From: an uncultured Flavobacteriales bacterium
Lineage (GTDB): Bacteria > Bacteroidota > Bacteroidia > Flavobacteriales_G > Salibacteraceae
Direction of reading: 5' to 3'
DNA length: 64,000 nt
Assembly: GCA_905479105.1 (NCBI GenBank)
Contig: CAJQLE010000003.1
Location: 62,001-126,000 of the forward strand
Positions 33,933-59,536 of this stretch are shown here, in pieces. The first letter of the stretch is position 1; each line of letters opens with the position of its first letter. The translations under genes were made by a program, and so were the position numbers. The notes below the pieces were generated by a model, which did not search any database, was not told the DNA's origin, and saw nothing but the letters and a program-made list of their open reading frames with translations.

Positions 33933-34576
33933 TTTATAGTGTCAAAAAGCTCTACAAATCCCTTTTCTCCCCAAGACATATCTATGAGGAGTACAGAAGC
34001 TAAAAAGGTGAATGATGCACCGATTATGCCTCCAACGTAAATATCCTCAAAGAAATGCTGACTGATATACACCCGACTAAAGGCTACTAGAAGTCCCACA
34101 GAAAAGAGCATAACTTGGAGGATAGGCTTGCGGGCAATGAGCGCAAGAAAAAAGAAGGTGCTAAAAGCCGCAGTTGAATGACCGGAAGGAAATGAAAAAT
34201 TGGAGTGAAGGTTTACGCCATCAATAAAATGCAAATCTGCCATTTGCTCAAAAACTTTTGATGGACGCAGTTGGTCATCAAAGACCTGCCGCTTCAAAAA
34301 TTGAGTGATAATTGATGAGCTTAGTAATCCGAGTAATCCGATAACACCAAAACGAATTCTATAAATGAATCCTAGAGCAACGATAATTGCTGCAAAAATA
34401 CCATCACCTAGATGCGTTCCATACTTGAAAAACACATCAAAGTATGGGTGATTAAAATTGTTGAGGTAAAGATGCAACGGTTCTTTATCAGTAAATGAAA
34501 TAACGATAGCACCGAAAATTATCCAACCTATAAGCAGGGCAATGAAAACTTGAGTTCGGGCTAGTGTGCTTCTCAT
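33929..34576 (-). CDS. PAP2-family lipid phosphatase
   Basis: A 215-residue membrane phosphatase with all three PAP2 motifs: KRQVFDDQLRP, PSGHSTAAF and SRVYISQHFFEDIYVGG. It should remove a phosphate from a lipid such as undecaprenyl diphosphate or a polyprenyl phosphate, or from lipid A. Being sandwiched (4-base overlaps on both sides) between a DPM1-like GT2 and a GT39, it probably recycles the polyprenyl carrier of that pathway or edits its lipid acceptor. This is inference. Confidence 0.9.
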   Translation of the reverse strand: MRSTLARTQVFIALLIGWIIFGAIVISFTDKEPLHLYLNNFNHPYFDVFFKYGTHLGDGIFAAIIVALGFIYRIRFGVIGLLGLLSSSIITQFLKRQVFDDQLRPSKVFEQMADLHFIDGVNLHSNFSFPSGHSTAAFSTFFFLALIARKPILQVMLFSVGLLVAFSRVYISQHFFEDIYVGGIIGASFTFLASVLLIDMSWGEKGFVELFDTIK

Positions 34577-35322
34577 TTCTTTACCCGAAATATCTTATTG
34601 CTACCAAGGCCTTTTTTACTTGCCCAATATTGGACAGAAGTTTTTAAAACACCAAGTCCGTATGTTGTGCTTCGAGAGAAGTTGATTGAAGATGCTTCCT
34701 CGAAATACTTGGTAGGACAGGTAACCTCTGCGATATCAAATCCCGCATGAAATATTTGACAAATCATTTGATTATCAAATACAAAGTCATCAGAATTGGC
34801 TTCGAAGTCAATGGTCTCAAGGATTGATTTTGAAAATGCGCGGTAACCTGTATGGTATTCACTTAATTTCTGGCCGATAAGGATGTTTTGAGTAAGAGTG
34901 AGAAAGCGATTTGCAACGTACTTATACATTGGCATCCCTCCTCTTAACGCCCCTTTTCCTAATATACGGCTTGCTAAAACGCTGTCGTACAGTCCGCTGG
35001 CGATCATATCAGCCATTGCAGGAATTAGCAGAGGAGTGTATTGATAATCAGGATGAACCATGATGGTGATATCAGCATCTAGCTCTAAAGCTTTTCTGTA
35101 GCAAGACTTTTGATTGCCTCCATATCCCGTATTTTTTTCGTGGGTAATCACATGCTTAATCCCGATTTCTTTGGCTAGTTCGGATGTTCGATCTGAACTT
35201 TTATCATCAACCAAAACAACATCGTCAACGATATCGAATGGAATTTCATCATAGGTGGTTTTCAACGTGAGTTCAGCATTATATGCCGGCATCACCACTA
35301 CTACTTTTTTGCCTTTGATCAT
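34573..35322 (-). CDS. Dolichol-phosphate-mannose synthase-like GT2
   Basis: About 249 residues of GT2. N-terminal KVVVVMPAYNAELTLKTTYD and DDVVLVDDKSSDRTSELAKE, with VHPDYQYTP holding the DxD-like site, fit polyprenyl-phosphate sugar transferases of the DPM1/ArnC kind. No C-terminal membrane helices are seen, so it is the short soluble form. I start it at the ATG at 35322 (MIKGKKVVVVMPAYNA): the ATG at 35376 lies inside a terminator hairpin. It is the first gene of the module. Confidence 0.88.
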   Translation of the reverse strand: MIKGKKVVVVMPAYNAELTLKTTYDEIPFDIVDDVVLVDDKSSDRTSELAKEIGIKHVITHEKNTGYGGNQKSCYRKALELDADITIMVHPDYQYTPLLIPAMADMIASGLYDSVLASRILGKGALRGGMPMYKYVANRFLTLTQNILIGQKLSEYHTGYRAFSKSILETIDFEANSDDFVFDNQMICQIFHAGFDIAEVTCPTKYFEEASSINFSRSTTYGLGVLKTSVQYWASKKGLGSNKIFRVKK

Positions 35323-35414: not shown

Positions 35415-37451
35415 TTATTCAAGAATAAATCGCTGAGTCTGTGTTTTCCCATCGATCTCGAACGTAATAAAGTAAACTCCAGCACTATAATTATTAAGGT
35501 CTAGCTCTGCTTGAGCACGTCCATTTGTGAGGTTAACTCGATCATTGAGTATTGGGCGTCCCTCTATGCTGAATACGGTATAGTTAATTTGACGAGAGCC
35601 AACCACATCAACTACAACATTTAAGAAGCCTTGTGTTGGGTTAGGGTAAAGTACAATCTAACCATTTAAAGCATGTTCATCAACACCCAAGCAATCATCT
35701 TCGTAAACTTCTGTCTGTGCCTCTGAAGAACATCCATCTGCGCTGGTGACCTCTGCTGAATAGGTTCCAGTCGCAGTGACATTGATAATCTGCGTTGTTT
35801 ATCCTGTTGACCAGTTAAAAGTCGATCCAGAGTTTTGAGCGTCAAGTGAAACTTCACCACCAGCGCAAAGTGCATAGGCACTGTCGAATAAAATTGTAGG
35901 GTCAGGATTAGTGAAATCAACACTTCCGTTTGCTTCAGCTACACAGCCATTGTTATCTGTAACGGTAATGAAATATAAACCTGTATCTAATGCATTAATT
36001 TGACTGGTTGTTTCGCTAGTTGACCAAGAAAATAAAAAGGGAGAGGTTCCACCTGTGCTCAGGGCTTCAATCTCGCCATCACCGGAATCATGGCAGGTAG
36101 CGTCTGTTATTGTTAGAGCGACAAGTAACTCATTTGGACTATAAATGGTGTCAGTATAGATATCGTTACATCCATTTTGGTCGGTGACCCTAGCAGAGTA
36201 GACGCCCGCGCCAACTCAAGAAATTAAAGTGTCTGTTGATGAATTTGACTAAAGAAAGTCTAGCTGCCCTAATCCTCCCTCTGCGGTTAACACAATTTCT
36301 CCTGTTTCATCTCCAAAGCATAGCACAGAATCAACAATGCTTACTAGAGATATTATCACAACCTCTGGGGCTACAATTGTATCAATTGCAACCAATTCAC
36401 AACCATTGTCATCTGTAATCGTGACTTGATGAGGACCGGCATCTAAGCTGTCGGCTATAGCTCTCTTATCGTTATTAGACCAAGAATAGGTGTACGAGCC
36501 AAAGCCTCCACTGGGCACCACCTCGATAGAACCTGTGGCTTGACCAGCGCACGCTGGAATAGCTAGAATACTTGTACTCGCGGCAAGGGCAGTTGGTTCG
36601 TTTATAGTTGTTGAGGATTGACCTATACAACCATAAATATCCGAGACGGTTACCGAATAATTACCCGTATCTGTAGTGTCGATCATAGCTCCGGTCATGC
36701 CGTTTGACCATGAATACGTGAAAGGAGCTGTTCCTGCTGAGGACGATGCTGTAATTGTTCCTGTAGAATCGCCAAAACATAAAACATCTTGAACAGATGT
36801 AAAAGACACTATTGGGTTTGAGACGATATTGACCACTAGAGAACCGCAAGGAGACAATGAATTATTGTAATAGTTGGCGGCATAGTAAGTGGTTGTTGAA
36901 GTAATTGGAACAACAATGCTGGCGCCAGAATCTATGGGTGTTGATCCACAGGACCCGGTATACCAATAAGTTTGATCTCCAAAGGGATTTGAGACAGTCA
37001 AGGTAACAGGGCCAAATCCATCGCAAATAAATGTATCATTGGCTGAGATTATAGGAGTGGGGATGGCTTCTTCCGTCACATATGATATGCGGCAACCTGG
37101 AGGTGCTGTGCTGCAGGCATCATTAGAGAAAATGTGCATTCTCACAGTTTGAGGAGCGAGAAGCCCAATTAGTGCAGAGGAAGTGCCAGAATCAATTACT
37201 GTATTTGAAAGAGTTGAAATAGTCAAAAAATCTGTTGCTACGCTCGTTTCAAACCTCCAAATCCCAGCGGGAAGGCTTACTGTTGCATAATCTCCAGGAA
37301 AATTGCAGCTTAAAATTGTCTGTTATCCAACAAAACCACCGCTTGCGCTTAGGTTTCCTGCTGCAACTGTTGCAATGCATTGTGCGTTCATATTAATCCC
37401 CTGAAAAAGGAAAATAATAGACACGAAAAAAGCAGTTAAAAATCGTTTCAT
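35415..37451 (-). pseudogene. T9SS SprB-repeat surface protein with five in-frame stops
   Basis: One reading frame of 678 codons runs from the ATG at 37451 to the TAA at 35417-35415, broken by five internal stop codons and no frameshift: TAA 37325-37323, TAG 36251-36249, TGA 36218-36216, TAA 35801-35799, TAG 35660-35658. The parts in between read as a coherent secreted protein: signal peptide (MKRFLTAFFVSIIFLF...NAQ), a C-rich N-terminal domain, four SprB-like repeats (FTYSWSNGMTG...YSVTVSDIYGC; SYTYSWSNNDK...HQVTITDDNGC; SPFLFSWSTSE...YFITVTDNNGC), an Ig/PKD-like unit, and an intact type-A T9SS C-terminal sorting domain (IVLYPNPTQGFLNV; NYSAGVYFITFEIDG). Each stop sits where a sense codon is expected; the TAG at 36251 replaces the repeat Trp (FL-W-SN). 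As read here, no full-length protein can be made without stop-codon read-through. A hairpin terminator follows. Confirm by long reads. Confidence 0.85.
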
Positions 37452-37618: not shown

Positions 37619-39157
37619 TCAGCCAGCCCAGCTTTCTCGATCTAAACTTCGAAATTGAATGGCTTCCGCCAAATGTTCAGGCTTGATTTTTTCAGAAGCC
37701 CCAAGATCAGCAATGGTTCTTGAAACCTTTAAAATTCGGTCGTAAGCTCTAGCCGAGAGTCCCAGTCGCTCCATAGCTCGTTTTAAAAGCGCCTGGCCGG
37801 CAGTATCAATTTCACAATAGGTCGCAATCATTTTCTTTGTCATTTGAGCATTGCTATAAACACCTTCGAACTCTTTGAATCGCTCCGTCTGAATATTGCG
37901 GGCGCTCATAACACGCTCACGCACAATTTCACTTAACTCAGCCGGGCGTTTATCTGACAATTCATCAAAGTTGACAGGTGTCACTTCGATATGGATGTCG
38001 ATTCTGTCAAGCAGCGGACCGCTAATCTTATTCAAATATTTCTGCACCACTCCTGGCGCACAAACGCAATCTTTTTCGGGGTGATTGTAATATCCACAAG
38101 GACAAGGATTCATCGAAGCGACCAACATGAATGAAGTAGGGTAATCAACGGAAAATCGCGCGCGTGAAATTGTCACTTTTCGCTCCTCCATAGGTTGTCG
38201 CATTACTTCTAATACGGAGCGCTTGAATTCTGGTAATTCATCTAAGAATAATACGCCATTGTGAGCCAATGAAATTTCGCCTGGTTGAGGAAAGCCTCCG
38301 CCTCCAACCAGCGCTACATCACTGATAGTGTGATGTGGGGATCGATACGGACGGACAGTGATGAGCCCGTTTGAGTCGCTTGTTTTCCCTGCCACAGAGT
38401 GGATTTTTGTTGTTTCTAATGCTTCTTGCAAAGTCATTGGAGGCAGAATCGTTGGAAGCCTTTTTGCTAGCATGGTTTTCCCAGCTCCTGGCGGACCAAT
38501 CAGAATAACATTGTGTCCACCTGACGCAGCTATTTCAAGAGAGCGTTTGATGTTTTCTTGGCCTTTTACGTCACTAAAGTCAACTTCAAAATCATTGAGT
38601 CGATTGTAGAATTCTTCTCTGGTATCTAAGAATGTGGGAATGATTTTTTTCTTCCCTTCGAAATGATCGATTACATCTTTAATATGGGTTACCCCAAGAA
38701 CTTCAAAATCATTTACTATAGCAGCTTCCAGTGCATTTTTTTCAGGAAGAATAAAGCCTTTGAAGCCTTCTTTTCTTACTTGAATAGCGATAGGAAGCAC
38801 TCCTTTGATAGGTCTTAACTCTCCATCAAGGGCCAGCTCTCCCATAATGATGTATTCGCTTATATCATCTGAACTGATTTGTTCAGAAGCAGCCAAAATT
38901 CCCATGGCGATCGTGAGGTCATAAGAAGAGCCTTCTTTGCGAATATCCGCAGGCGCCATGTTAATCGTAATCTTCTTTCCTGGAATTTTGTATCCTGTAT
39001 TATTCAAAGCAGCATCAATCCGATGTTGACTTTCTTTTACAGCACTATCAGGAAGCCCAACCAAAGAAAAATTGATTCCCTTGTCGATATTTACTTCAAC
39101 AGTAATGGTGGTGGCATCAACACCGTGAACAGCACTTCCGTAGGTTTTTACAAGCAT
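37619..39157 (-). CDS. YifB/ComM-family Mg-chelatase-like AAA ATPase
   Basis: A 512-residue cytoplasmic protein with an N-terminal Lon-like domain (ATTITVEVNIDKGINFSLVGLPDSA region), a central Mg-chelatase-type AAA+ module with Walker A (GPPGAGKTMLAKRL) and Walker B (LFLDELPEFKRSVLEVMRQP), and a C-terminal Mg_chelatase_C part with zinc-like cysteines (CPCGYYNHPEKDCVC). ComM in Gram-negative bacteria drives branch migration during natural transformation; the general role outside that is less clear. The sequence is normal in length and complete. The start is the usual MLVKTYGSAVHGVDA. Confidence 0.92.
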   Translation of the reverse strand: MLVKTYGSAVHGVDATTITVEVNIDKGINFSLVGLPDSAVKESQHRIDAALNNTGYKIPGKKITINMAPADIRKEGSSYDLTIAMGILAASEQISSDDISEYIIMGELALDGELRPIKGVLPIAIQVRKEGFKGFILPEKNALEAAIVNDFEVLGVTHIKDVIDHFEGKKKIIPTFLDTREEFYNRLNDFEVDFSDVKGQENIKRSLEIAASGGHNVILIGPPGAGKTMLAKRLPTILPPMTLQEALETTKIHSVAGKTSDSNGLITVRPYRSPHHTISDVALVGGGGFPQPGEISLAHNGVLFLDELPEFKRSVLEVMRQPMEERKVTISRARFSVDYPTSFMLVASMNPCPCGYYNHPEKDCVCAPGVVQKYLNKISGPLLDRIDIHIEVTPVNFDELSDKRPAELSEIVRERVMSARNIQTERFKEFEGVYSNAQMTKKMIATYCEIDTAGQALLKRAMERLGLSARAYDRILKVSRTIADLGASEKIKPEHLAEAIQFRSLDRESWAG

Positions 39158-57064: not shown

Positions 57065-57622
57065 ATGAAATTCGGATTTTTAGGAAAGTCTTTGTTAGTC
57101 GTGTTTATTGGGTTGATTGCATTGGCCATCATTTCCAATCCAGCTCAAAAACAGCTTAAAATAAAGCAGCTTGATTTCAAGGTTTTGGAATCTGATGAAT
57201 TGTATTTTAAAAACTTGAGGCAGTATTATTACGAAAAGAAAACAAGAGAGGATGCTGGCTTTAACCTGTTGAAGTTAAAGGAGTCAAACGCAAACCAGGA
57301 AATTAGGAAGTCATATTTTACGATTGTAACTGACTGGCGAAATGACGCTGCTTACATTATGCTTTCAGTGGACTCGTCCTTGATTATACCTCATCGATTA
57401 ACAATATCAAGCCCACTTGATACATTCATTATTTCTGAGATGAATATGGAAAGTCATCAACACGTGGCTTCGAAAGTATATACAGCCTTAGAAGACGAAA
57501 AAGTCTCTTTTTTTCTCATTTCAGCTCAAAATAAGGAGATGGAGATTTGGGTAGATAATGAAGAGAAAAATCTCTTAAAAAGGATTTTAAAAGACTATTT
57601 CAAATTAGTGGGAGCTTTGTAG
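57065..57622 (+). CDS. Protein of unknown function with N-terminal anchor
   Basis: 185 residues with a hydrophobic segment near the start (SLLVVFIGLIALAIISN) that may be a signal anchor. The rest has no recognised motif; strands such as LDTFIISEMNMESHQ and a C-terminal basic helix are visible. It diverges from the carotenoid cluster, 57 bases away, and its 3' end overlaps the end of the kinase pseudogene on the other strand. Confidence 0.55.
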   Translation: MKFGFLGKSLLVVFIGLIALAIISNPAQKQLKIKQLDFKVLESDELYFKNLRQYYYEKKTREDAGFNLLKLKESNANQEIRKSYFTIVTDWRNDAAYIMLSVDSSLIIPHRLTISSPLDTFIISEMNMESHQHVASKVYTALEDEKVSFFLISAQNKEMEIWVDNEEKNLLKRILKDYFKLVGAL

Positions 57623-59536
57623 TTTCAAAGGAATACGAACGGTAAAAGTTGACCCTTCTTTTTCTATGCTTTCAGCATTGATTGTGCCTCCAATGCCATT
57701 AACCTATTTAATTACCATACGGAGGCCTAAATCTGCACCATACTCATTATTTGCACCTAAGATTGACCCGTCACCTTTGATCAATATTTTCTAAAGTTTT
57801 TCTAAAGCAATATCTATTCCAAAATCATGAACTTTGGTAATTGCGAAGTCTTTGTCTTGCATGTACTCTATATCGATTTCAGAATCGTGATGAGAGTATT
57901 TTATTGCATTAGAAATAAGGTTTCTTAGGATAAGTGACGAGGCCATACGGTCTGTTTCTACGCTTATGCTTGAATGTGCTTTTACGTTGATTTTAATGTT
58001 TTTAAGCTTTGCCAAAGGCTTAGATATGCTTATCACTTCTTCCACTACATCTGACCACTTAAATGGTATGCGTGACGGTATATAACCATTGCGTTGTGAT
58101 ATTGCCCAGCCAACGAATGAGTCAAACATTAAAGCTAAGTCGGCACTTTGCCGATAAAGATCTTTTGATAATATGGCGAATTCTGCGGCATTGATGTCCT
58201 TCGATTGAAGCAGTTCTAATGTAAGCTTCACATTATTTAGAGGACCTCTAAAGTCATGACTAATCATTGAAATAATGCGCTGATTCACCTCGAGAGAGTC
58301 TTCTAAAGAAGACACAAGTTGTTTGAGTTCGAGCCAGTAAATGAATATAATGACAGATAGAATTAATAATATAATAAGACCCACGCCAATGAAGAGAACG
58401 CGCATATTGCTTTGCTCTAATTGCAAAGACTTGACTCTTGATTGATACTCAAGATTGTATATTTCATTTTGCTTCTGTTCTCGAAAGAATGCAACTTCCA
58501 GTTGCAGAGCGTGCATAGAATCTTCCTTGTCTCTAAATTGAAGTTTCAATTCAGCGAAACGCTTGAAATAATCAAAGGTCTTTTTAGGGTCAGAATCTTG
58601 ATAGATTTGAAATAACCCATCTAAGGCTATCATCTCTTCATAACGATCAAAAGCATCAACTGCAATTTTCAACCCGGTGACCAACCTAATGTGTTGTAAT
58701 AATCATCGATCAAATGATCTTGCTTGCTATCCCTGAATTCTTTAATCCGCAGTAAATATTTTTTTGCTTTTCGATGATCATTCAATTGATCATAAACGTC
58801 AGCCATTGACATATACAGTTGGGAAATGGCTTCTTCATCATTTCTGCCTAGATATCTGTTTTCTGCTTCAAGATAGTACTTTATAGCCTGAGGCCACCGC
58901 TCAAAAAAGGACTCTGATGCACCTAGTCGATCGAAGTAGGCCTAAGAAAGAAGGGTGCTTAACGAGGAGTTGTTCAATCCTTGATTTGATTTCTTTGTTC
59001 TTGGATGTGTCTCCCTCGCACTCCCGCATTTCCATTTCTTGAAGTAGCCCCAACATCAGGAGAGAGTCGTTGTTTGCATTTTGGCATAATTCAACAAATT
59101 CAGCTGAACGATTTACTCCTGTGCCACATAAACTGTAATAGCGATAGAAATGGAAGGCTTGTAAATAAGCTTTTTGAGTGATTCTAAAAGCAGGTTGTTC
59201 GCTAGAAATAATGCTAAAGGCACTATCATAGTGAATTGCTGCAGCATTTTCGTTAGCCGTCACTTGGTCAATTACCGCCTCCGTTAAAAGCCAGCTTATT
59301 TCAATTTCTGCTGAGCTGTTTTTCTTTGCTCTAGACTCTGTTAAGCAGATTTTAGCGCTGTCTACCATTGCATATTTAGCAAATGCTTTGCATTGGGCTC
59401 ATTTGAACATTCGGATTTTAGGATTTTTATCGGCTTGAATTCTCAATGAATCCAACTCAGGGGTTTGACCGTAGGTCACTGAGTAAATAACAATGAATAA
59501 AAGTGATTTGAAGAATTGTAATGGTTTTAACTTATA
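57605..59536 (-). pseudogene. Disrupted TPR-sensor histidine kinase
   Basis: A gene of about 640 codons reading signal/anchor, TPR helices (for example IKYYLEAENRYLGRNDEEAI), one membrane helix (FIGVGLIILLILSVIIFIYW), HisKA with the H-box MISHDFRGPLNNVKL, and the HATPase (RNLISNAIKYSHHD; GADLGLRMVIK). Lesions: TGA at 59401-59399; a one-base insertion near 58941; a one-base deletion near 58685 that restores the frame; TAG at 57793-57791; TAG at 57706-57704. The start position carries TAT, not ATG. The kinase C-terminus (residues after DFGIDI) is cut off by the TAGs. A partner response regulator is not in the window. This looks like a true decaying gene. Confidence 0.85.

Follow-up and report, generated by a model that had tools for sequence, protein, structure and literature searches.

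A T9SS surface-protein gene with five in-frame stop codons and no frameshift in a Salibacteraceae genome, read as a unitary pseudogene

A 64,000-nucleotide stretch of DNA from an uncultured Flavobacteriales bacterium (the window) carries, on its minus strand, a 678-codon frame interrupted by five stop codons. We conclude, with a probability of about 0.93, that this is a unitary pseudogene: a gene for a T9SS-exported surface protein, with no close paralogue, that was inactivated by point mutations. It is best read as an ordinary decaying gene and an ordinary gene loss. The frame is intact in orthologues at the same chromosomal place, and the closest relative compared has a copy broken in another way. 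The genome bearing the window is called G000 below, and its relatives are numbered likewise.

A former coding frame with five stops

The features of the locus are as follows, in the direction of transcription:
37619-39157, minus strand: upstream neighbour, which we take to be a comM/YifB-type ATPase gene; open frame of 512 codons
35418-37451, minus strand: pseudogene of a T9SS-exported SprB-repeat surface protein; 678-codon frame with five internal stops
37380-37451, minus strand: signal-peptide-like N terminus of 24 codons, judged by eye
37323-37325, minus strand: in-frame TAA, codon 43; all 5 orthologues aligned here have a sense codon
36249-36251, minus strand: in-frame TAG, codon 401; both orthologues aligned here have a Trp codon
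36216-36218, minus strand: in-frame TGA, codon 412; all 5 orthologues aligned here have a sense codon
35799-35801, minus strand: in-frame TAA, codon 551; all 6 homologues aligned here, including the broken G011 copy, have a sense codon
35658-35660, minus strand: in-frame TAG, codon 598; all 6 homologues aligned here, including the broken G011 copy, have a sense codon
35418-35657, minus strand: intact frame of the Por_Secre_tail (T9SS sorting domain), 80 codons, 3' of the last stop
34573-35322, minus strand: downstream neighbour, presumably a glycosyltransferase-like gene; open frame, 98% identical in G011

Translation of 35415-37451 on the minus strand gives 678 codons and a terminal stop, and the internal stops are exactly those listed by an earlier reading of the sequence alone (TAA at 37325, TAG at 36251, TGA at 36218, TAA at 35801 and TAG at 35660). 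The remaining five frames of this interval hold 34 to 49 stops each, and 2000 shuffles of its bases gave a mean of 38.7 stops with a minimum of 22. The presence of only five stops in one frame thus identifies a former coding frame. When the stops are written as X, Pfam finds SprB in four stretches (120 bits) and Ig_7 (47.6 bits). Por_Secre_tail scores 61.1 bits against a cut-off of 27 and covers profile positions 1-74 of 75, so that the sorting tail is recognized in the dead gene, which concerns the sequence and not any protein made from it. The description of a frame running over 678 codons from a signal peptide to an intact sorting domain therefore stands, with the first part judged by eye and the tail by Pfam. 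The same is true for the absence of a frameshift, as the orthologues from G007 and G009 align end to end in a single frame, each with gaps of 1, 1, 3, and 1 codons. Each stop had also been said to lie one base from an expected sense codon; judged by the homologue codons, this holds for codons 43, 401, and 551, but not for 412 and 598.

The domains of the dead gene still resemble those of its living relatives in the genome. G000 has 98 Por_Secre_tail matches, 93 of them over the curated cut-off, which in a 2.79 Mb genome is a high T9SS cargo load for its size. The dead gene's tail comes 28th among the 98, and among 137 SprB matches its best repeat comes 4th, which indicates little erosion. A whole-genome DNA search of G000 found no second place similar to the dead gene, and its paralogues in the same genome are, among the matches listed, 37-40% identical in protein. 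Since there is no close paralogue at the DNA level, this is not a recent duplicate decaying beside its parent, nor is it a visible donor cassette. A silent cassette, kept for gene conversion into expressed SprB-repeat paralogues, would not need to be translated, and the SprB repeats it could feed are abundant in G000. However, the DNA search shows no trace of recent exchange and the paralogues are distant in protein, making this reading extremely improbable.

Two other loci came up among genes of this kind. From its frame lengths, L061 was taken for a possible second broken SprB gene, but it consists of three adjacent genes with their own starts. At G000:C2:160392-161500, two adjacent related T9SS-tailed genes have one in-frame stop each (TAG at 161496 and TGA at 160580), with the frame kept.

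The locus across the genus

Among the 60 genomes searched (G000 included), two full-length stop-free matches from the same genus were found, in G007 and G009. Both are 690-codon open frames with 46% identity to the dead gene over 667 aligned positions. The orthologues from G006, G010, and G012 are longer (817-844 codons) and also have no internal stops; at their 33-35% identity, single columns of the alignment may be misplaced. In all five genomes the orthologue sits between comM and the glycosyltransferase gene, the latter being found at an identity of at least 83% in 11 of the 13 genus genomes searched (G000 included), with weak matches only in G003 and G008. At the five stop positions, all 24 of the aligned homologue codons are sense, and among these homologues there is no stop common to G000 and another copy. 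By eye, the upstream regions of G000, G007, and G009 had no clear conserved promoter element.

In the closest relative compared, G011, the downstream glycosyltransferase gene is preserved, while comM has been deleted along with the first half of the surface-protein gene (deletion junction at G011:C23:68112-68205). What is left is a 223-codon remnant with one TGA, at a position where G000 has a sense codon. In the other four species read beside the glycosyltransferase gene (G001, G002, G004, and G005), no match to the dead gene was found there. In G002, comM directly adjoins the glycosyltransferase gene, and in G004 the two are separated by an unrelated gene with a T9SS-type tail, recognized by eye. 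Other sequence separates them in G005, and G001 lacks comM in the stretch read, with a short other gene before the glycosyltransferase gene. A contig search gave distant relatives only (4 loci). The point-mutation pseudogene proposed from the sequence alone is thus supported by open syntenic orthologues and by a differently broken copy in a sister species.

These comparisons also bear on programmed read-through or recoding, through which the full-length modular protein would still be made. The frame is kept through all five stops, and the domains 3' of the first stop score like those of other G000 members, as this explanation would have it. However, no homologue has a stop at any of the five positions (0 of 24 alignment cells), three different stop codons would need to be decoded, and all three terminate other G000 genes (86 TAA, 29 TAG, and 23 TGA among ORFs of at least 200 aa in 240 kb). 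G000 also has both an RF1-like and an RF2-like gene, one with an SPF motif and the other, 363 aa long, with PNT as read by eye; the RF1 and RF2 labels rest on these motifs. Among the 35 tRNAs found in G000 none has a stop-reading anticodon, with 150 of 212 candidates scored in the first look and no separate search for selenocysteine tRNA. Read-through had already been ranked last among three explanations, with the orthologue codons named as a check; the check counts against it and, with the three stop codons, the two release factors and the tRNA result, we reject it as having next to no probability.

How long ago the unitary pseudogene was inactivated is a different matter. A codon model with separate omegas puts about 5 to 15 neutral changes per codon on the G000 and G011 branches. 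The model is saturated and the relatives are too distant, which means that the inactivation cannot be dated. Forcing omega = 1 on the whole G000 branch is 3.6 log-likelihood units worse, in a model saturated at all distances, and no rise in dN/dS betrays the decay. In a relative-rate comparison over 285 conserved columns, 32 changes were counted in the dead gene versus 23 in an intact orthologue (p = 0.28). The codon-model cost and the conserved-site counts point to a gene under constraint over most of the branch, which is not evidence of function now. The suggestion that the pseudogene is young remains plausible, given domain scores within the genome's range and no significant excess of conserved-site changes, although it cannot be turned into a date.

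Missing frameshifts and the local lesion spectrum

Under simple mutation models, a gene with five stops should have taken about 97 to 165 neutral point changes. At 0.05 to 0.1 frameshifts per substitution, the probability that five of five lesions are nonsense is about 0.02 to 0.002. In PMC2916853, 346 of 378 Salmonella pseudogenes have one lesion, and 131 of these 346 are premature stops; with this share, the five-of-five probability is 0.008. Lesions of the genus itself were surveyed for a local ratio. In 240 kb of G000, searched with 342 proteins from three relatives (258 with hits), 12 rows were flagged: three in the dead gene, four in the kinase pseudogene, one in the sigma factor gene, and four that were dropped as lying upstream of the start or being of antisense type. 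The lesions counted are five nonsense in the dead gene, three nonsense and two frame changes in the kinase, and one nonsense in the sigma factor. For G011, 127 kb were searched with 413 proteins, of which 228 had hits, and all lesions are nonsense: one in the surface-gene remnant, two in the kinase, which has no frame change, and one in each of two adjacent genes. The 21 rows flagged in G011 had raised the suspicion of wide stop-codon recoding, which was rejected once stop positions left eight rows in four genes; the 13 dropped rows are stops before the likely true start, stops within the last codons, or antisense-type ORFs, with 83668 and 116348 uninspected.

The spectrum differs in G009, where frame changes affect four genes and a single nonsense lesion was counted. 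Here 13 rows were flagged, with six frame-change rows in the four genes, one in the sigma factor, and six dropped (one terminal, three antisense-type judged by query, and two kinase rows uninspected). The frame-changed genes, L121-L124 in 205 kb of G009:C4, have no stops, opposite to G000 and G011; the frame changes may be real, or indel errors of assembly. In G007, eight rows were flagged; two genes were counted, the first with a frame change and the second with an internal TGA, and six rows were dropped (three of these without a further look). When G000 and G011 are combined without the G000 dead gene (nine nonsense, two frameshift), the five-of-five probability rises to 0.37, and it is 0.43 with the two one-stop T9SS-tailed genes of C2 added. 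G000 alone (four nonsense, two frameshift) gives 0.13, with a posterior predictive value of 0.19, and the four genomes pooled (11 nonsense, seven frameshift) give 0.085. With genus lesion ratios the missing frameshifts thus have a probability of about 0.09 to 0.43 and, as the pattern was picked because it is unusual, they are mildly unusual at most. The argument that decay normally also brings indels, whose absence would then call for a special explanation, is only weakly supported: most lesions in the remaining broken genes of G000 and G011 are nonsense too, though this is not so in G009. The pseudogene would gain in importance only if such nonsense-heavy, frameshift-poor decay held generally in the G000 and G011 lineage. 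One way to read the nonsense excess in several G000 and G011 genes is as tolerated stops rather than a low indel rate, the dead gene's frame still being selected because frameshifts are kept out by low-level read-through, by a role of the DNA itself, or by fragments translated from internal starts. We consider this very improbable.

The same survey bears on a possible artefact of assembly or consensus, in which base errors or strain mixture made the stops and the gene is intact in cells. Base errors yield stops without frameshifts, the G000 assembly is in seven contigs, and according to PMC11017572 many of the putative pseudogenes found in bacterial assemblies have technical causes, a reason for caution here. 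However, five of the nine accepted internal stops in 240 kb of G000 lie in the dead gene; under uniform placement this has a probability of about 1e-8 over all ORF bases and 9e-8 over the 136 kb covered by homology, both being upper-end statements of the clustering since the gene was picked for its stops. Five stops in a single gene of 2 kb are not explained by scattered base errors. The frames of neighbouring genes are open, and the same locus in G011 is broken another way. Because the accepted stops cluster in few genes, the consensus or sequencing-error explanation is unlikely, and the lesions are probably real.

Among the other broken genes, the sensor-kinase-like pseudogene (window 57608-59503) had been cited as a decaying gene with indels, and it does have two frame changes besides an in-frame TGA at 59401 and TAGs at 57793 and 57706. 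The orthologue in G011 is likewise broken, with two TAGs at different positions, and the G009 copy has a possible in-frame stop. Outside the window, G000:C3:148335-148766, which we take to be an ECF-type sigma factor gene, has one in-frame TAG (C3:148487). Its G009 homologue has a TAG elsewhere, and the G010 and G001 homologues have lost the match in their C-terminal part. The G011 version has, in place of its middle, a stretch similar to what is presumably a gliding-motility C-terminal motif (IPNTFTPNNDG). A programmed stop was considered and rejected, the TAGs of G000, G009, and G010 being at different places. Apparently, one regulator has suffered repeated, independent damage across the genus. 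At G011:C23:17803-19797, the two genes downstream of the altered sigma factor carry one in-frame TAA each, and so the whole small G011 cluster looks damaged.

The probable gene loss compared with known systems

A course for this loss can be proposed. From the original start, translation would stop at codon 43, 18 residues past the likely signal-peptide cleavage site, itself placed by eye. The repeats and the sorting tail would not be made from this start, and no such exported product is expected. The loss was probably tolerated, because about 100 T9SS-tailed proteins are encoded in the genome and the content of the slot next to the glycosyltransferase gene varies from species to species in the genus. 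The five stops would then be neutral nonsense mutations, with the inactivating one either among them or preceding them all. Depending on the species of the genus, the gene in this slot is open, dead, replaced, or deleted, which adds one more example of the fast birth and death of T9SS surface-protein genes. Among the papers listed for T9SS, SprB, pseudogenes, and premature stop codons, titles and abstract openings mention no such case.

In its architecture, the dead gene is like T9SS SprB-repeat surface proteins, with a signal-peptide-like start, Ig_7, four SprB repeats, and a C-terminal sorting domain. The G007 and G009 orthologues share this architecture, although their Ig_7 scores of 23.3 and 26.1 bits are below the Pfam cut-off of 27.3. 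Unlike such proteins, it is untranslatable past codon 42 from its own start. It is in turn comparable to the Salmonella nonsense pseudogenes, as described in PMC2916853, in that it keeps a conserved place and has premature stops while its orthologues are intact elsewhere. The Salmonella pseudogenes, however, mostly have one lesion, whereas the dead gene has five stops and no frameshift.
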